Part shown: positions 2,335 through 54,116 of the stretch, in pieces
Numbering within the stretch: the first letter of the stretch is position 1
How the letters are laid out: every line of letters starts with the position of its first letter
Assembly (NCBI RefSeq): GCF_000515255.1
Contig: NZ_KI911559.1
Location: 1,940,824-2,004,823 of the forward strand
DNA: 64,000 nucleotides
Reading direction: 5' to 3'
Origin: Rhodovibrio salinarum DSM 9154
Lineage (GTDB): Bacteria > Pseudomonadota > Alphaproteobacteria > Kiloniellales > Rhodovibrionaceae
Program-made: the position numbers and the translations under genes
The notes under the pieces: generated by a model
The model's input: the letters and a program-made list of their open reading frames with translations, nothing else
What the model was told of the DNA's origin: nothing
Databases searched by the model: none

Positions 2335-2755
2335 GGCGACCTTCACGCCCGGCGGCGAGCCGCACTGGCTGCCGCCGGAGCAACTGACCCAGTTGAATGC
2401 CGAGGCGCTGGGCGAGGGTGCGCAGGGCCCGAAACTGGCCGACCTGAGCGGGGTCGAGCGTGCTCTGCAACGTCCGCGTCAGCTCTACAGTTATCATGAC
2501 GAGCGCGACGTCGTGCGGCTGGCCTGCGCGATCCTGGTCGGCCTCATCGAGGAAAAGCCGTTCGCCCAGCACAACCTAGGGACCGGCGTGGCCGCGTTGA
2601 TGCTGTTCCTGGAGGTTAACGGCTACCGCTGGGCCGGTCCGGACGGGCCCGTACTGGCCGCGTATGTGCGGGCGCTTGCGGACGGCCGCTACACCGAAGA
2701 GGGCCTGGCCGAGACCCTGCGCCCGGACATTTATCCGCTGCAAACCGCGGCTTGA
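2321..2755 (+). CDS. Doc/Fic-family protein with degenerate active-site motif
   Basis: From TTG 2321 the product has 144 residues and follows the layout of the death-on-curing (Doc) branch of the Fic family. It has WLPPEQLTQLNAEAL near the start, then GVERALQRPRQLYSYHDERDVVRLACAILVGLIEEKPF and LFLEVNGYRW. Doc proteins phosphorylate EF-Tu and Fic proteins AMP-ylate targets through an H-P-F-x-D/E-G-N-K-R-T type motif. Here the equivalent segment (residues 79-88) reads KPFAQHNLGT: the catalytic His is Lys, and Gly-Asn-Lys-Arg is His-Asn-Leu-Gly. Catalysis by the usual route is therefore unlikely. The start is uncertain: the frame is open to 2249, but a GAGG sequence sits just before the TTG. It overlaps the 55-residue gene upstream. 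Confidence 0.7.
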   Translation: MATHEATFTPGGEPHWLPPEQLTQLNAEALGEGAQGPKLADLSGVERALQRPRQLYSYHDERDVVRLACAILVGLIEEKPFAQHNLGTGVAALMLFLEVNGYRWAGPDGPVLAAYVRALADGRYTEEGLAETLRPDIYPLQTAA

Positions 2756-2870
2756 GGTCTGGACCGTAGGGGAGGCGCCACCGTGTCAGTGGTAACTGCC
2801 GCGCGAACCGTGGCCTGCCGCGCATCTGCATGACGGTGACGTTCTGGCGCGGGGTCGCCCCTACGGCGCT

Positions 2871-3146
2871 CTAACTCTCGTTCTTATCGCTGTTGCCACT
2901 CTCATCGCCGGCGTCGGCCGGTTGCTCGCCGTCGGTGCCGAAGGTGGCGGCGAAGGTTTCCGCGCCGCCAGCGGCCGCACGGTTTTCTTCCTGGATGCGC
3001 TCGTGGACCTCCCGGCGCAGGACGCTGGCATCGGCCGGAAAGTTGAAGCCGAGTTTGATCGACTTGCCACGGATGTCGACGACCGTGACCTCGATCTCGT
3101 CATTGATAATGACGGATTCCCCGATCTTTCGGGTCAGGTAAAGCAT
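2871..3146 (-). CDS. csrA: Carbon storage regulator CsrA
   Basis: CsrA binds GGA motifs in mRNA leaders and controls translation, often of flagellar genes. Residues 1-60 match the family from the start: MLYLTRKIGESVIINDEI, VTVVDIRGKSIKLGFN, then VHERIQEEN. The product is 91 residues, about 25-30 longer than the usual 60-70. The extra part is an acidic, Ala/Gly/Asp-rich C-terminal tail ending in NSDKNES. It faces away from flgB across a shared upstream region, a common alphaproteobacterial position where CsrA or its partner tunes flagellin and rod expression. Confidence 0.95.
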   Translation of the reverse strand: MLYLTRKIGESVIINDEIEVTVVDIRGKSIKLGFNFPADASVLRREVHERIQEENRAAAGGAETFAATFGTDGEQPADAGDESGNSDKNES

Positions 3147-3344
3147 CCGGGCACATCTTCTCCTAAGGTGGCCGCCGACCGCAGCCTCGGGACGGTTCCC
3201 CGTAGCCGCCGGCTCGGCGCAATTTAGCCGGCTTTACCGCTTCTTAACAAGCAGACTGCGAAGGTTCGCCTACGCGCAGACCCGGTACGCGCCGTGTCGG
3301 GGCCGCCGCGTGCTGAGGACAGGTTAACGAAGGTCGGCAGCGAC

Positions 3345-3752
3345 ATGGGTGTGCAGAACTTCACGGTATTCGACGCGTTGCAGCGCAAGATGGGCTGGCT
3401 CAGCCAGCGCCAGGGTGTGCTGGCGGACAACATCGCCAACGCCGACACGCCGGGCTACAAGCCGCGCGACGTGAAGGAAGCCCCGTTCCAGCGGGTGATC
3501 GAGCGGATGCTGAAGCCGATGGCCCCGCGCGTCACCCACGAGGGGCATGTCGATGCGTCGATCCCCGGTGAGCCGCGTTTGGACGTCGACGAGGCGAAAG
3601 AGAAGTACGAGACCTCGCCGGTTGGCAACGCGGTCGTGCTGGAAGAACAGCTGGTCAAGGTGTCCGAGACTCAGATGGACTACCAGACCATGACCAATCT
3701 CTACAAAAAGCACATGGGTATGTTCCGCATCGCGCTCGGCCGGGGCCAGTAG
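3345..3752 (+). CDS. flgB: Flagellar proximal rod protein FlgB
   Basis: FlgB forms part of the proximal rod of the basal body. The 135-residue protein has the rod-family N-terminal helix with LADNIANADTPGYKPRDV (about residues 24-45) and a C-terminal helical segment with the MTNLYKKHMGMFRIALGR pattern, matching FlgB in length and order. The ATG at 3345 is preferred because the protein then begins MGVQNFTVFDALQ as other FlgB proteins do; an in-frame start at 3294 adds 17 residues that do not look coding. It opens the plus-strand run flgB-flgC-fliE-fliQ-fliR-flhB. Confidence 0.96.
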   Translation: MGVQNFTVFDALQRKMGWLSQRQGVLADNIANADTPGYKPRDVKEAPFQRVIERMLKPMAPRVTHEGHVDASIPGEPRLDVDEAKEKYETSPVGNAVVLEEQLVKVSETQMDYQTMTNLYKKHMGMFRIALGRGQ

Positions 3753-3805
3753 GCCGCCGCGCGCCGCAATAGACCCTGATGCGCCAGAGCGCAGGACGCC
3801 AGACG

Positions 3806-4213
3806 ATGGATCTCTCCAAGGTTCTGCATATCTCCGCCGCCGGCATGAAGGCACAGGGCGTGCGTCTGCGCGTGCTGTCGGAGAACGTTGCGAACGCCGA
3901 TTCCGTGGCGCGGACGCCCGACGGCGAGCCGTACCGACGCAAGCTCGTCACCTTCGCCAACGAGGTGAACAAGGAGCTCGGCATCAACCAGGTGAAGATC
4001 GACCAGATCGAGCCCGATCCGAGCGAGTTCGGCCAGGAATACCGGCCCGGCCACCCGGCGGCCAACGAGGAAGGCTACATCCAGACGCCGAACGTCAACA
4101 GCTTGATCGAGATGTCCGACATGCGCGAGGCCCAGCGCAGCTACGAGGCCAACCTGAAGGTCATCGAGAGTTCCCGCACGATGTTATCACGTACGATCGA
4201 TCTGCTGCGCTAA
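3806..4213 (+). CDS. flgC: Flagellar proximal rod protein FlgC
   Basis: FlgC is a proximal rod subunit of the flagellar basal body. The 135-residue product carries the rod signature at the N-terminus (AAGMKAQGVRLRVLSENVANADS, near residues 11-33) and the classic C-terminal helix with SLIEMSDMREAQRSYEANLKVIE. Start ATG 3806 gives the standard MDLSKVLHISAAGM beginning. It lies 53 bases after flgB and about 120 bases before fliE. Confidence 0.96.
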   Translation: MDLSKVLHISAAGMKAQGVRLRVLSENVANADSVARTPDGEPYRRKLVTFANEVNKELGINQVKIDQIEPDPSEFGQEYRPGHPAANEEGYIQTPNVNSLIEMSDMREAQRSYEANLKVIESSRTMLSRTIDLLR

Positions 4214-4334
4214 TCCGCTGACTTTGCATCATCCTGGTGGCCAGGAAGGCTGCCGCCTGAAGGGTCATCGCCGCGCTCTAGGCAAGGCACGCCTTTGCGC
4301 CCGCGGCGCTTAACGAAGAGAGAGACCGGTTCCG

Positions 4335-21361: not shown

Positions 21362-23203
21362 CTAGACCGGCGGCCTTTGTCGGTGCGCGAGCAGCGAGCC
21401 GGCCCAGGCCAGATAGGCCAGGGCTGCGAGTATCATCCCGGTTTCCAGCCAGTTGGAGCGATCGTCGCGCCGGGCGGCCTCGGCCCGTGTGGCGCGGTCG
21501 CGGAAGCTGGGCAGCACGGGGTCGAGGGTTTCCGTCGTGTCGTTGGCCGCGGCAAGCGTCTCCGCTTCCCGCAGCGGCACCGGCCGTCCCTGGATGCCGA
21601 CCGTGCTGGCCGGGCCGCCATGGACGGGGCCTGTCGTCGCTTCCTGGAGCGCGGGGCCGGCCAGCACCAGTTGCATCGATAGCGTGTCGATCGGGCCATC
21701 GCTTCCGGGGACCGCAGAGGCCGGCAGCCGCTGGGCGTTCAGAAAGAAAGGCGGGGCGATCACCCACTGGCTCAGGTCTGCTGCCTGGATATCGTTGTTG
21801 GCCGGGGTGCCGAGCGCCTCCCGCGCACCTTCGTCCAGCAGCAACAGAGCGGCGTCCAACTCGCCCGCGCGCAGGGCCGAGATCAGTTGGCCAGAGGTCA
21901 TCCGTTGGGCTGGTTGGTTGCTGGCCAGCGCCAGGATGCGCGCCGCGACCTTGCCGCCAGCGGTCCAGCCGGGCTGTGTCCCGACGCGCTGGGTCAGGGG
22001 GTTACGCTCCGGAGCTTCGCGCCCGGCGCGCGTCAGGAGCAAGAATGGCTGGCGGCCGACGGCGGTGATCGCTTCCAGTCGCGGGTCGCGCCCGCCATAG
22101 GCGCCGCGCCAGCTTAGCTGGAAGAAGTCGCTGGTGTGCACGATGGCAAGTTCGGCGGTACCGTCGGCAAGCGCGGCGGCCGGATCGTTGCGCGTGACCA
22201 TCTGCACCGGACGCTCGGGAAACGCGCGGCGCACAGTCAAGAGTGCCGCACCTCCCAAGTCGCCGAGTTCCGCTCCGCCCCGGACCGCGACCGTCATGTC
22301 GGGTCGGCGCACGCTGGGGCCGGTCGCGTCCAGCACGCCCAGGTCGACCAGCAAGCGGCTGGCGAGCGGGCCCGCCTCCCGGCCCTGCAACACCTGCTCG
22401 CGCAGCAGTGGCTGCACCGTCTCGTCGGTGACCCGGCCAAACAACGGCTTGAGGGCTTCTTCTATGAACGCCTGCCGAGCGGTCGCGGCCGGGCCCAGTA
22501 CGACGGCTGCTTGATAGCGGGGATAAAAATCCAGCGGATCGCTCAGGGCAGTCATGCTCGTCTGCCGCACGAAAGGCGCGCGCGTGACCGCAACGTCGAC
22601 CTCGTCGGATAAAAGCTTGGCGACCCGCTCGGACGGCGCTTGCAGCTCCGCGACCTGCTCGGGCGTGATTTCGAGGCCGTAGCGCCTGGCGAGCGCGAAC
22701 AAGCCGTCGCCCGGCTGACGCATGTACCCAGGCGGGACAGCGAACCGTGGGCGCTCCAGCTCACTCAGGTCCGCGATCGTCGCGACGGCCTGCGTTTCGG
22801 CCTGGGCACTGCGCATCAGCAGGCGATAGGGCGCATCGAAGCCAAAGGCCGGCGTGGCGGCGAGCCCGGCGTCTTCGAGTGCGCGTTGGACCGCCGGGAG
22901 ACGGCCGTCGCTTACCGGCTCGCCAGCGAAGAAGGCTCGCGCGGTGCCGGAATACTCTGGCAGCAGGTCGATGTCGCCGGCCTGCAGCTGCCGGCCACAG
23001 GCCAGCGGGGTGGAGCAGGCGGTCAGCACCGTCCGGGCGCCAGCATGCTTGAGGGTTTGGGCGACGAGTTCGGCCATCAGCGCGCTGTCCGGCTGCCCCT
23101 CAAGATAGCCGATGCGGAAGCTGGGCCGTTGGGCGCAGCCGGCAAGCAGGGTCGCAGCCAGCAATATCCCGACCAGGACGCGCAGCATCGCATTCGCCTT
23201 CAT
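21362..23203 (-). CDS. Betaine-type substrate-binding lipoprotein with extra C-terminal region
   Basis: The 613-residue product starts with a lipoprotein signal (LLAATLLAGC, lipidation at Cys23). An OsmF/OpuAC-like binding domain follows (about 30-290), seen as IGYLEGQPDSALMAELVAQTLKHAG and DIDLLPEYSGTARAFFAGE. A second binding-protein-like region follows (about 295-540), then a single membrane helix near the end (GMILAALAYLAWAGSLLAH). OpuAC proteins normally serve ABC transporters for glycine betaine or choline. Here the ATG overlaps the stop of the BCCT transporter gene by 4 bases and no ABC permease or ATPase is adjacent. The double domain and C-terminal anchor are unusual. Confidence 0.8.
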   Translation of the reverse strand: MKANAMLRVLVGILLAATLLAGCAQRPSFRIGYLEGQPDSALMAELVAQTLKHAGARTVLTACSTPLACGRQLQAGDIDLLPEYSGTARAFFAGEPVSDGRLPAVQRALEDAGLAATPAFGFDAPYRLLMRSAQAETQAVATIADLSELERPRFAVPPGYMRQPGDGLFALARRYGLEITPEQVAELQAPSERVAKLLSDEVDVAVTRAPFVRQTSMTALSDPLDFYPRYQAAVVLGPAATARQAFIEEALKPLFGRVTDETVQPLLREQVLQGREAGPLASRLLVDLGVLDATGPSVRRPDMTVAVRGGAELGDLGGAALLTVRRAFPERPVQMVTRNDPAAALADGTAELAIVHTSDFFQLSWRGAYGGRDPRLEAITAVGRQPFLLLTRAGREAPERNPLTQRVGTQPGWTAGGKVAARILALASNQPAQRMTSGQLISALRAGELDAALLLLDEGAREALGTPANNDIQAADLSQWVIAPPFFLNAQRLPASAVPGSDGPIDTLSMQLVLAGPALQEATTGPVHGGPASTVGIQGRPVPLREAETLAAANDTTETLDPVLPSFRDRATRAEAARRDDRSNWLETGMILAALAYLAWAGSLLAHRQRPPV

Positions 23204-24744
23204 TGCCATGACCGTGCCCGCTCCCGTTCGGCCAGGTAGCGGGCCTCGTCGAACTTCAGGGCGCGCAGCAAGGCAACCATCTGCAACACCATCACCGCAG
23301 CGAACGGGATCGCCCCAAGAACGGAGAGGCTACGCACCGCCTGTATGTCGCCGGCGAGGATCATCGCCGCGCCCAGCAGAGCCAGCACCAGCCCCCAGGC
23401 GACCTTGCTGCGCCGGTCCGGGTTGGCGACGTGACTGGACAGCATGCCAAGGACGAAGGCAGCCGAGACCACGCTGGTCACCAGGAAGACGAACGCCAGC
23501 ACCATCGCGGTGGCGTTCAGGACGCCGGGAAAAGGCACACGCTCCAGCAGCGTGAACAGCGCGATCGAGACATCGTAACGCACCATCTCCACAACCCCGC
23601 CCAGGCCGTAGAGTTCCTCGTACAGACCGAACCCACCGAACACGGCGAACCACAGGACCGAGAAGACGGTCGGGACCAGGATCACCCCGGCGATGAACTC
23701 GCGGATCGTCCGCCCGCGGCTGATCCGGGCGATGAACACACCGACGAAGGGCGACCAGGAAATCCACCAGAAGAAGTAGGTGAGCGTCCAGCCCTGGAAC
23801 CAGCCGGCGGCTTCCTGGCGTTCGAAGGTGAACAGCTGGAACGACAGACTGACCAGTTCGGTCAGATAGTCGCCGGCGGTGGTGACGAAGCCGCGCATCA
23901 GGAACGCGGTGGGCCCCGCCAGCAGCAGGAACAGCATCAGCGCGATGGCGAGCGCCATATTGGCGTTGGACAGCCACTTCACGCCTTTATCGAGCGGCAT
24001 CACCAGCGGCAGGGCGTAACAGACCACGAGCATCAGGAGCAGCGCGCCGGAGATCCACAGCGCTTCGGGGTCCGTCTCGACGAGCACGAACAGGCCGCGC
24101 TGTAGCTGGAACACACCCATTGCGATCGAGCCCGCCACCCCCAGGGCGATCGCAACGATCGCGGTGATGTTGGCGGCTTCGGCGGCGGCCGGCACCCAGC
24201 GCCCGGGCAGTTCCGCGCGCAACCCGGCGCCCGGCATGAAACTGCCGCCGCGCTTGAATGCGAAATAGGCGAGGGCGAGCGCGGTCATGCCGTAGATCGC
24301 CCAAGCGTGGAAGCCCCAGTGGAACAGCGTGACCGCAAGCGCGTGGCGCGCCGCCTCCCGGCTGCCAGGGGTGTAGCCGGGCGCGCCGTCGAAGTGCAGC
24401 ACCGGTTCGGCGACGCCCCAGAACAGCAGGCCCACGCCCATGCCGGCGGCGAACAGCATGGACAGCCACGACGGTGTCGAGAACTCCGGGGACTCGTCAC
24501 TGCGCCCCAGTCGGACACGCCCGTGCCGGCCGAGCGCCAGCCAAGCGGCCAGCACCAGCAACCCGGTCACCCATAGCATGTAGAGCCAGTCCAGCGCGTC
24601 GAACGCCGCGCCCGTCACTTGGCCGGCCCAGGCCGCGAGCCCCGCGGGGTCGGCGATGCCCCAGATCGCCACCCCCGCGCACAGCGGCAGCGAGATCAAC
24701 AGCGCGCGCATGCGCGTCAGCCAGGTTCGCAATCCTGTAAGCAT
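23200..24744 (-). CDS. BCCT-family transporter (betaine/carnitine/choline type)
   Basis: BCCT carriers bring in trimethylammonium compounds with Na+ or H+. The 514-residue product has the 12-helix build, with FAAGMGVGLLFWGVAEPVLH (about 104-123) and the family signature GWTLTYFFWWISWSPFVGVF (about 319-338). ATG 24744 is preceded by a GGCAGGA sequence; longer upstream frames lack family features. Which betaine-like solute is carried cannot be fixed. Overlap of its stop with the following lipoprotein gene suggests that the two are made together. Confidence 0.93.
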   Translation of the reverse strand: MLTGLRTWLTRMRALLISLPLCAGVAIWGIADPAGLAAWAGQVTGAAFDALDWLYMLWVTGLLVLAAWLALGRHGRVRLGRSDESPEFSTPSWLSMLFAAGMGVGLLFWGVAEPVLHFDGAPGYTPGSREAARHALAVTLFHWGFHAWAIYGMTALALAYFAFKRGGSFMPGAGLRAELPGRWVPAAAEAANITAIVAIALGVAGSIAMGVFQLQRGLFVLVETDPEALWISGALLLMLVVCYALPLVMPLDKGVKWLSNANMALAIALMLFLLLAGPTAFLMRGFVTTAGDYLTELVSLSFQLFTFERQEAAGWFQGWTLTYFFWWISWSPFVGVFIARISRGRTIREFIAGVILVPTVFSVLWFAVFGGFGLYEELYGLGGVVEMVRYDVSIALFTLLERVPFPGVLNATAMVLAFVFLVTSVVSAAFVLGMLSSHVANPDRRSKVAWGLVLALLGAAMILAGDIQAVRSLSVLGAIPFAAVMVLQMVALLRALKFDEARYLAERERARSWQ

Positions 24745-52013: not shown

Positions 52014-52047
52014 GCTGCCTAACTCGAGAAGCTGCCTAACTCGAGAA
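52014..52047. repeat. 17-base tandem duplication at the end of the MttB-like gene
   Basis: GCTGCCTAACTCGAGAA is present twice head-to-tail. One copy supplies the last codons (Phe-Ser-Ser) and TAG of the methyltransferase gene; the other lies just beyond the stop. Confidence 0.9.
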
Positions 52048-53682
52048 CGAGTCCGCCATCGAGGCCTTGGTGCGCGCGACGTAGTCCTGCAGCGCTTCGT
52101 CGGTCGCGGGGTCGAGGGCGGGCGCCTCATACTCCGCCAGGCGCTTCTTCCACAGGGTATTGGCGCGTTGGGCGGCGTCCTGCGCGCCTTCGCTCTCCCA
52201 CTGCTCGAAGGAGTTGTTGTCCGCGATCTTGGAGCGGAAGAAGGCCGTCTCGAAGTTCGCCTGGGTGTGGCTGGCGCCGAGGTAGTGGCTGCCCGGGCCG
52301 ACCTCGCGGATGGCATCCATCGCCTGGCCGTTTTCCGACAGATCCACGCCGTTGGTCATGGCGTGCATCATCTCCAGCTGGTCGGCGTCCATCACCAGCT
52401 TTTCGAACGACGCGGCCAGTCCGCCTTCCACCCAGCCTGCGGAATGCAGCGTGAAGTTCACGCCGGCCAGCACGGTCGGCAGCAGGGTGTTGGCGCTTTC
52501 GTAGGCCGCCTGCGCATCCGGAATCTTGGACCCGCACAGCGAGCCGCCGGAGCGGAACGGCACGCCCAGCCGGCGCGCCAGCGCGGCGGCGCCGTACAGC
52601 ACCAGCGCCGGCTCCGGCGTCCCGAAGGTAGGCGCGCCGGACTGCATCGAGATCGAACTGGCGAACGAGCCGAACACCACCGGCGCACCGGGGCGCACCA
52701 GCTGGGCGAACGCCATACCCGCCATCGATTCCGCGAGCGTTTGCGCCAGCGTGCCGGCGATCGTCACCGGCGCCATGGCGCCGGCCAGAATGAACGGCGT
52801 GATGATGCAGGCCTGACCCGCGCGGGCGTAGACCTTGAGCGCGCCCAGCATGGTCGCGTCGAAGGTCATTGGCGAGTTGGCATTGATCAGCGAGATGGTG
52901 ACGACGTTCTGCTCGACCGTCTCCTTGCCGAACAGGATCTTGGCCATCTCCACCGTGTCTTCGGCGCGTTCGGGCGCGGTGACGGAGCCCATGAATGGCT
53001 TGTCGCTGTAGCGCATGTGCGCGTACAGCATGTCCAGGTGCCGCTTGTTCACGGGCACATCGACCGGCTCGCACACCGTACCGCCGGAGTGGTGCAGCGA
53101 CGGCGTCATGTAGGCGAGCTTCACGATCTTCTGGAAGTCGTCGAGCGTGGCGTAGCGACGACCTTCGTCCAGCGTGCGCACGAACGGCGGGCCATAGACC
53201 GGGGCAAACACCGTATTGTTGCCGCCGATCTCGACCGACCGCTCGGGATTGCGGGCCAGCTGGGTGAACTGCCGGGGCGCGTTGTCCTGGATGATCTTGC
53301 GCGCCATGCCGCGCGGCAGGCGCACCCGCTCGCCCTGGACGTCCGCACCGGCCTGGCGCCAGATCTCCAGCGCCTCCGGGTCGTCGCGGAACTCGATCCC
53401 GATCTCTTCCAGGATGGTGTCGGCGTTGGCCTCGATCGTCTCCAGGCCTTCTTCGCTCAGCACCTCGTAGGGCGCGACCTTGCGGGTGATGTAGCGCAGC
53501 TGCTGCACCCCGCCGCCGCCGCGTTGGGCGCGCCGGCCTTCCCGGCCGCTGCCACGCCCGCCACGGCCACGCCGGCCGCCGCGGCCGCCAGCATTGGCGG
53601 TACTGTCGGCGGTGTCGCTGGCCGTTTCGGCGGATGCGTCGTGTCCGGCGGGCGTCTCGGCGGTTTCGGCAGTGTTGGTCAT
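52036..53682 (-). CDS. MttB-family methyltransferase without pyrrolysine
   Basis: The MttB superfamily takes methyl groups from trimethylamine, glycine betaine or similar quaternary amines to a corrinoid protein. The 548-residue product has an N-terminal Arg-Gly-rich tail (about 34-60) before the TIM-barrel. Family segments include YITRKVAPYEVLSEEGLETIEANADTILEEIGIEF, FAPVYGPPFVRTLDEGRRYAT and GPGSHYLGASHTQANFETAFF. The frame has no internal amber stop, so no pyrrolysine, placing it with the betaine-type members. No corrinoid protein or methyltransferase partner gene is adjacent. Start ATG 53682; MGTRV upstream is also in frame. Confidence 0.9.
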   Translation of the reverse strand: MTNTAETAETPAGHDASAETASDTADSTANAGGRGGRRGRGGRGSGREGRRAQRGGGGVQQLRYITRKVAPYEVLSEEGLETIEANADTILEEIGIEFRDDPEALEIWRQAGADVQGERVRLPRGMARKIIQDNAPRQFTQLARNPERSVEIGGNNTVFAPVYGPPFVRTLDEGRRYATLDDFQKIVKLAYMTPSLHHSGGTVCEPVDVPVNKRHLDMLYAHMRYSDKPFMGSVTAPERAEDTVEMAKILFGKETVEQNVVTISLINANSPMTFDATMLGALKVYARAGQACIITPFILAGAMAPVTIAGTLAQTLAESMAGMAFAQLVRPGAPVVFGSFASSISMQSGAPTFGTPEPALVLYGAAALARRLGVPFRSGGSLCGSKIPDAQAAYESANTLLPTVLAGVNFTLHSAGWVEGGLAASFEKLVMDADQLEMMHAMTNGVDLSENGQAMDAIREVGPGSHYLGASHTQANFETAFFRSKIADNNSFEQWESEGAQDAAQRANTLWKKRLAEYEAPALDPATDEALQDYVARTKASMADSFSS

Positions 53683-54116
53683 GACTCTCGTCCCCAAAGC
53701 CCGGGCGCGTGGTGTTATGGATCGCGGACTCGGGCGGCGTTCGCGCGCCGCGTCTTAGCCTGGATTATTCGGAGTGGGTCCCTAGCGGGGCTGTCGTTTC
53801 CGCGACGGGGAACGGCTGAATTGCGGCGCGGCGCGGGGCCGCAGGGGCTCTACGTCGCGTAACGGCTCTATGCTTCTGTCCGCTGTGCTACACCGTGTCG
53901 GTCCCACACTTGCTGGGTGTCGCTTTTCGGGGGGCTGGCCGGTTTGCGATCCCGCAGCGTCCGGCTCGCTGGACGGGCAGGCGGGCGACCGGTTAACTGT
54001 CGCGGGCAGGGGCTTCGAAGACAGCCCTGCGCGTGGGCCGGTTGCGGAGACCGTCCCTAAGGCCACGCGACGCCGACGCGTGCGATCCGCCGGGACCAAG
54101 ACGAAGGATATGCTTG
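53683..54116. other. 434-base divergent region between MttB-like and ETF-QO genes
   Basis: No supported gene. It must hold promoters for both flanking genes. The Arg/Ser-rich open frames here do not look coding, and no clear hairpin or repeat was found. Confidence 0.5.

Follow-up and report, generated by a model that had tools for sequence, protein, structure and literature searches.

A BCCT carrier gene overlapping the gene of a two-cup lipoprotein, a candidate binding-protein-assisted secondary carrier

The locus and the architecture of the lipoprotein

We analysed a 64,000-nucleotide stretch of the Rhodovibrio salinarum DSM 9154 genome (contig NZ_KI911559.1, positions 1,940,824 to 2,004,823), hereafter the window, in which a gene for a carrier of the BCCT family overlaps a gene for a putative binding lipoprotein. 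A sequence-only reading of this DNA had singled out the pair as an unusual secondary-carrier system with a binding protein. The features concerned are the following.

23200..24744, minus strand: BCCT-family carrier of 514 amino acids (PF02028); the start ATG at 24744 was chosen, and the open frame extends to 24963
23200..23203, minus strand: ATGA overlap of the BCCT stop and the lipoprotein start (sequence and translations)
21362..23203, minus strand: two-cup lipoprotein of 613 amino acids, with an alternative start at 23209
23135..23203, minus strand: lipoprotein signal peptide with lipobox LLAG-Cys23 (sequence)
22325..23131, minus strand: N-terminal cup of OpuAC/ProX/OpuBC type, residues 25-293 (PF04069; VIA)
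21473..22315, minus strand: predicted C-terminal cup of TAXI type, residues about 297-577 (VIA; profiles of relatives)
21380..21454, minus strand: predicted membrane helix at the C-terminal end (residues 584-608), with a short basic tail after it (model; relatives by eye)

The window carrier matched PF02028 in a profile search (E = 7.7e-152, profile positions 3-483 of 485), and BetP and a trimethylamine transporter are among its solved relatives. Its TGA stop shares four bases, ATGA, with the ATG start of the lipoprotein gene on the minus strand; use of the alternative ATG at 23209 would lengthen the overlap to 10 bases. The next gene downstream of the lipoprotein encodes a DUF454 protein. The source genome is a single contig of 4.18 Mb with nine OpuAC, four BCCT carrier and 65 BPD_transp_1 matches, and none of the 65 permease matches fell inside the window range, ABC ATPases in the window not having been searched for. 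The overlapping carrier and OpuAC-type lipoprotein genes and the lack of an ABC permease, as read from the letters alone, were thereby borne out. Outside the window, at G000:C1:3252938-3255122, this genome has an OpuAC match and a TAXI match side by side in opposite directions.

The lipobox cysteine is kept in all 30 aligned full-length lipoproteins, the window's included, that were collected in the surveys described below. Residues 38-276 of the window lipoprotein match OpuAC (PF04069, E = 1.1e-20), a profile also matched by 15 of 15 full-length members, and the OsmF profile is matched by 30 of 30. An AlphaFold model of the window protein, built from the 30-row alignment, had a mean predicted local distance difference score (pLDDT) of 79.9 and a predicted template-modelling score (pTM) of 0.54. 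In VIA structure alignments, its residues ~25-293 aligned with ProX, OpuBC and EgtU entries at Z scores of 23.9-29.5, with values of about 29 against 1sw1, 3r6u and the EgtU entries.

The second cup is of the TAXI type, and a second OpuAC domain was ruled out by profiles and structure alignment. A profile of 15 full-length relatives led from its first ~300 positions to OpuBC, ProX and EgtU, and from positions 352-529 to TAXI structures. A C-terminal-half profile of 30 relatives matched 1us4 (E = 4.1e-14), 8u79, a TAXI protein of T. thermophilus (E = 4.5e-14), and the V. cholerae TAXI protein VcGluP (9ibo and 8s4j, E about 6.5e-5). TIGR02122 (TRAP_TAXI) was matched by 29 of the 30 family members, with a best value of 2.7e-16, when members were counted at E <= 0.01 instead of at the curated cut-off of 84.35 bits. 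For the window protein the assignment comes from the model, in which residues ~297-577 would correspond to 4ddd, 9ibp, 8s4j, 9ibo, 8u79 and 1us4 (VIA Z 16.3-17.8); the root-mean-square deviations of 4.4-4.8 are middling, and the TAXI rows stand low in a VIA list dominated by the first domain. This match was found by VIA on a second model; Foldseek on the first model had returned chiefly the N-terminal cup. The two binding-like regions of the sequence-only reading thus proved to be an OpuAC cup and a cup that aligns with TAXI proteins. Its C-terminal membrane helix was likewise recovered, modelled at 584-608 and matched by a hydrophobic C-terminal segment in the tails of both sets of relatives (15 and 28, by eye).

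Recurrence and inheritance of the gene pair

Among 61 genomes of the order, 21 had a lipoprotein match at E <= 1e-5. Of the 22 matches that these genomes gave, 15, counting that of the window, are full length, six have the OpuAC part alone and one is truncated at the start of a contig. A BCCT gene lies directly upstream of all 14 other untruncated full-length lipoprotein genes, and these paired carriers are 44-47% identical to the window BCCT; the three other BCCT carriers of its own genome reach 29-36%. In a second survey, 84,980 species genomes were scanned with two peptide patterns, which yielded 61 loci, 28 of them encoding the full-length (two-cup) lipoprotein and 33 the OpuAC part alone (one-cup). 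Because only these two patterns were used, 28 loci is a lower bound. A BCCT gene was directly upstream in 28/28 two-cup loci versus 0/33 one-cup loci, whereas an osmoprotectant-type ABC permease was found in 0/28 two-cup loci versus 33/33 one-cup loci by tblastn with one query from the source genome, confirmed as BPD_transp_1. Some flanks in this comparison are short: among others, those downstream in L035, L055 and L061 span 398 to 600 bases, and the one upstream in L045 spans 657. The split of the upstream BCCT gene between the two kinds of locus indicates that the arrangement is more than chance.

Since 13 of the 28 scan loci duplicate genomes of the order survey, the merged surveys comprise 30 different genomes, and the pair is present in every genome that has a full-length lipoprotein (30/30). 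A survey for the same pair had been proposed in the sequence-only reading, with a single sighting as the outcome that would count against it; recurrence in both surveys rules out a one-off gene arrangement. Pair-bearing taxa include Kiloniellales, Rhodovibrionaceae, Pelagibius, Roseovarius, Defluviimonas, Mesorhizobium, other Hyphomicrobiales and Gammaproteobacteria, and the carrier and lipoprotein genes are spaced by -4 to +27 bases where measured, with starts as chosen. The full-length lipoprotein occurred in 2 of 385 genomes of a class sample and 2 of 398 of a phylum sample, the window's own genome being one in each, with at most three candidates per genome scored. It was also present in three plasmid records. 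Two Martelella plasmids carry both BCCT and lipoprotein genes, with an overlap of 4 bases in NC18; on a Paracoccus aminovorans plasmid (L164), as in L060, the paired BCCT matches fall in two frames beside an open lipoprotein frame, and these two carriers look broken or misassembled.

A third gene frequently accompanies the pair. Downstream of the lipoprotein, a universal stress protein (UspA) gene was found in 26 of the 28 two-cup loci; the gap measures 396 bases in one locus and 2 to 71 bases in the other 25. Four of four proteins tested matched PF00582. The gene was likewise present beside L016 and on the Paracoccus plasmid; searches with three UspA proteins detected none in L050, L060 or the Martelella stretch. 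TRAP transporters are associated with UspA, which appears to regulate them negatively, according to the available part of one source (PMC11574862).

Two loci deserve separate mention. In L054, from a Minwuiaceae genome, the pair is immediately preceded by another BCCT gene of lower similarity (2682-4232, plus strand). L053 is titled Oceanobacillus sp. HTM 045, has a GC content of 69% in its stretch and a carrier placed among alphaproteobacterial ones, and is probably a mislabelled genome.

The carriers themselves were then compared. With a paired carrier as query in the order, the top 15 matches were the 15 paired carriers (45-100% identity), and the remaining 39 of 54 BCCT matches were 37-44% identical. 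No lipoprotein gene was found within 1.5-kb flanks of the 15 of these 39 that were examined, nor, in the order survey, beside L009, one of the other 24. Pairwise distances of carriers and lipoproteins correlated at r 0.97, a value as high in 0 of 2000 permutations (28 pairs, window excluded), which fits long joint inheritance and which linked genes would give anyway. In the carrier tree, 29 of the 30 paired rows formed one clade with a Shimodaira-Hasegawa-like approximate likelihood ratio test (SH-aLRT) value of 97; the row of the window is taken up below. L045, whose carrier is cut by a contig end, was dropped from the tree, a second tree also omitted L012, L149, L010 and L151, and row L156 is identical to L062, probably from the same genome.

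Two unpaired carriers of this comparison have neighbours of their own. Just downstream of one lies a gene for an extracellular solute-binding protein of another family, SBP_bac_3 (L146, 362-1201, minus strand, E = 1.2e-24), perhaps by coincidence, or perhaps as another type of BCCT carrier with a binding protein, and downstream of another lies a gene for the small TRAP membrane subunit DctQ (L143, 228-827, minus strand, E = 1.2e-13).

Conserved residues and a possible uptake unit

The motifs GMG.G, HW..H.W..Y and WW..W.PF are present in the window BCCT and kept in the paired carriers. In window numbering, W143, W148, Y151, W326 and W327 are found in 29/29 paired carriers and W330 in 27/29; we take these aromatics to be the BetP substrate-path residues of transmembrane helices TM4 and TM8. 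Because these core aromatics are so kept, the paired carriers look transport-competent.

In the N-terminal cup, window residues 84, 87, 126 and 230 align with AfProX Y63, T66, Y111 and Y214 and are kept in 30/30 members. The equivalent of R149 and the lysine of a KNFTE-like motif (K13, assigned by motif) are kept in 29/30, the window protein being the exception. For K13, R149 and parts of the cage we assumed the AfProX numbering. At the position of AfProX Y190, many members have Tyr and others Phe or Leu. In AfProX, according to the available part of the source, an aromatic cage binds the ligand, Lys, Thr and Arg hold its carboxyl group, and a Phe stands where EgtU has Gly (PMC9732360). At this last position Phe is found in 29/30 family members and Gln in the window protein. 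Since the equivalents of Y63, Y111, Y214 and T66 are kept throughout and the Lys and Arg in 29 of 30, most members look like betaine-type binders, to judge from the alignment.

We consider it probable that the pair is a BCCT secondary carrier for a quaternary-ammonium solute that is assisted by a binding protein. Carrier and dedicated, doubly membrane-anchored binding protein would form one uptake unit. The N-terminal OpuAC cup would catch the quaternary-ammonium compound in the periplasm, betaine-like in most members, while a lipid anchor at one end and a membrane helix at the other would hold the lipoprotein over the carrier. The TAXI-type cup would then take over the ligand, or act as a docking or gating piece, and the BCCT carrier would import the solute, driven by an ion gradient. 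UspA, encoded next in most relatives, may adjust the activity, as reported for TRAP systems. The carrier and binding protein as a unit are well supported, because the pair is present in 30/30 genomes and an osmoprotectant-type permease in 0/28 two-cup loci. The unusual carrier and binding-protein system of the sequence-only reading therefore stands as regards the unit; the delivery or sensing of substrate that it ascribed to the lipoprotein is kept here in conditional form.

Several points weigh against this reading. To our knowledge, no BCCT carrier studied to date relies on a binding protein, and we found no uptake, binding or complex experiment on the pair in the literature. No fusion of BCCT and lipoprotein was noticed, no systematic search for fusions having been made; long open frames in L156 (1023 amino acids) and L048 (1082 amino acids) have carrier and lipoprotein in different frames. 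At least 2 of the 28 loci have ABC transporter genes of other types in their flanks: in a check that covered these two, L047 proved to carry genes for permeases of the oligopeptide type some 3-5 kb downstream, and L052 to carry, upstream, genes for an ABC ATPase and the binding protein that goes with it. Because pTM is 0.54, the relative placement of the two cups in the model is not usable; its single domains are. The TAXI cup, moreover, may bind nothing. In VcGluP a Tyr and a Gln matter for glutamate (Y45 and Q93), according to the available part of the source (PMC11574862), and neither was seen at the TAXI-cup positions that align by eye, in alignments that stop short of Y45; it is this seeming absence that suggests an empty cup.

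The remaining points concern the window's own copy. Its lipoprotein is divergent (22-28% identical to relatives), is the only one of the 30 without a TIGR02122 match, and has Gln and Glu at the carboxylate-clamp Arg and Lys positions in the alignment, so that its ligand may be one without such a carboxylate. Three queries detected no gene like the relatives' UspA in the 64-kb window. Its carrier joins eight unpaired carriers in the tree (SH-aLRT 99, and 98 without long branches); forcing all paired carriers into one clade cost 19 log-likelihood units and was not rejected by the approximately unbiased test (p-AU 0.074). The eight may have lost the lipoprotein, the lineage of the window may stand apart, or the placement may be an artefact of the long branch; by eye, no neighbour gene is common to all eight.

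The same evidence bears on three other explanations. The lipoprotein could instead be a sensor or regulator of the BCCT carrier, such as an osmotic or substrate gauge, in which ligand bound by the cups would open, block or modulate the carrier, perhaps together with UspA. This would suit carriers known to work alone and a TAXI cup seemingly devoid of the known ligand determinants. It would also suit the UspA gene alongside in 26/28 loci, UspA being, in the available part of one source, an apparent negative regulator of TRAP transporters (PMC11574862). However, the invariant cage tyrosines (30/30) fit sensing and delivery alike and do not separate the two cleanly, and for the comparable TAXI-GltS pair the authors favour delivery, as far as the available part of their paper goes (PMC12344293). 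We regard a purely sensory or regulatory role as rather unlikely.

It is very unlikely that the lipoprotein works for an ABC or TRAP permease from another locus and that its gene adjoins the BCCT gene only because the two share a solute. Permeases able to act in trans do exist, because the genome holds eight other OpuAC matches (three of them a few kb or less from a permease match, five not) and three TAXI proteins over the cut-off. Against this stands the opposite distribution of BCCT and osmoprotectant-type permease genes in two-cup and one-cup loci. In addition, wherever the spacing of the carrier and lipoprotein genes was measured, it amounted to an overlap or to no more than 27 bases. This gene linkage makes an ABC partner elsewhere in the genome unlikely.

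That the pair is functional elsewhere and only the window copy is a degenerate or repurposed relict, its lipoprotein having drifted, is highly improbable: the long branch, the changes at positions 35, 37, 39 and 163 (residues kept in 29/30), the missing UspA gene of the relatives' kind and the grouping of the BCCT with unpaired carriers speak for it, but the reading frame runs unbroken through 613 codons, the 4-base overlap persists, and the lipobox, the cage tyrosines, the Thr66 equivalent, the TAXI-half invariants and the C-terminal helix are kept.

Comparison with known transport systems

ABC, TRAP and TTT transporters have all been linked to binding proteins, as, since 2025, has GltS. We file the pair as a variant of binding-protein-linked secondary carriers that stands outside TRAP, ABC and TAXI-GltS. 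We found no paper on a BCCT carrier with a binding protein in a search of the titles and abstract openings of the open-access literature, with subscription papers and preprints outside its scope; in the available part of PMC13220886 the search terms occur in the reference list only.

The nearest precedent is TAXI-GltS of Bordetella pertussis (BP0403/BP0402), published in 2025; what follows on it is drawn from the available part of the paper (PMC12344293). As here, the TAXI lipoprotein has an additional globular domain at its N-terminus, its gene overlaps the stop codon of the secondary-carrier gene before it, and the linkage extends across many genomes. The two genes are translationally coupled, and there, too, delivery to the carrier is proposed by the authors. 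The system of B. pertussis has no TRAP membrane gene; in the window, the genes that adjoin the lipoprotein gene are those of the BCCT carrier and the DUF454 protein. The two systems differ in that its carrier is GltS, of the ESS family and modelled as an elevator, in place of a BCCT carrier, and in that its N-terminal domain is PilO-like where the window lipoprotein has an OpuAC cup. Its TAXI domain binds glutamate and fusions to the carrier exist there, whereas none was noticed here, and no C-terminal membrane helix is described for it, in contrast to the helix predicted for the present family. This precedent, the TAXI type of the second cup and the UspA gene of the relatives had been missed by the sequence-only reading.

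The N-terminal cup shares its fold and most of its aromatic cage with the OpuBC, OpuCC, ProX and OsmF proteins of ABC importers (substrate-binding-protein cluster F). The osmoprotectant-type ABC permease, however, was not found at the two-cup loci (0/28), and the lipoprotein has a second cup and a C-terminal membrane helix in addition. TAXI-TRAP systems such as VcGluP share the fold of the C-terminal cup and, in the part of the source available, have UspA after the TRAP genes (PMC11574862), as it follows the pair in 26/28 loci here. They differ in that the adjoining membrane partner here is a BCCT carrier and that the glutamate-determining Tyr and Gln were not seen by eye. BetP and other stand-alone BCCT carriers have the family, the core aromatics and GMG.G in common with the paired carriers, whose gene, in contrast, is tied to a lipoprotein gene and whose C-terminal tail looks short (by eye, six rows).

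More tentatively, and with somewhat greater doubt than confidence, we suggest that the pair may represent a LeuT-fold carrier fed by a binding protein through a relay of two unlike cups, OpuAC and TAXI, on a doubly anchored lipoprotein, and thus a fourth binding-protein-dependent secondary family and the first outside the elevators. BCCT carriers have the LeuT fold. The pair could therefore test the idea, put forward in the available part of the TAXI-GltS paper, that an elevator mechanism may be required for a carrier to accept a binding protein, for which further classes would be informative (PMC12344293). A working BCCT carrier with a binding protein would count against that requirement. It would also mean that cups of the ABC and TRAP types have come together in one binding protein, and that a carrier of the stand-alone type could gain affinity for scarce solutes.

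Some further observations concern the surroundings of the pair. Promoter and terminator scans gave nothing exceeding shuffles. A tRNA-Ala call by ARAGORN at 24583-24670 (minus strand) lies inside the BCCT coding sequence and is very likely a false positive. At 52036-53697 on the minus strand, 28 kb from the pair, the window encodes an MTTB-family protein (trimethylamine methyltransferase, PF06253, E = 1.7e-240), a gene that could bear on the organism's use of quaternary amines.

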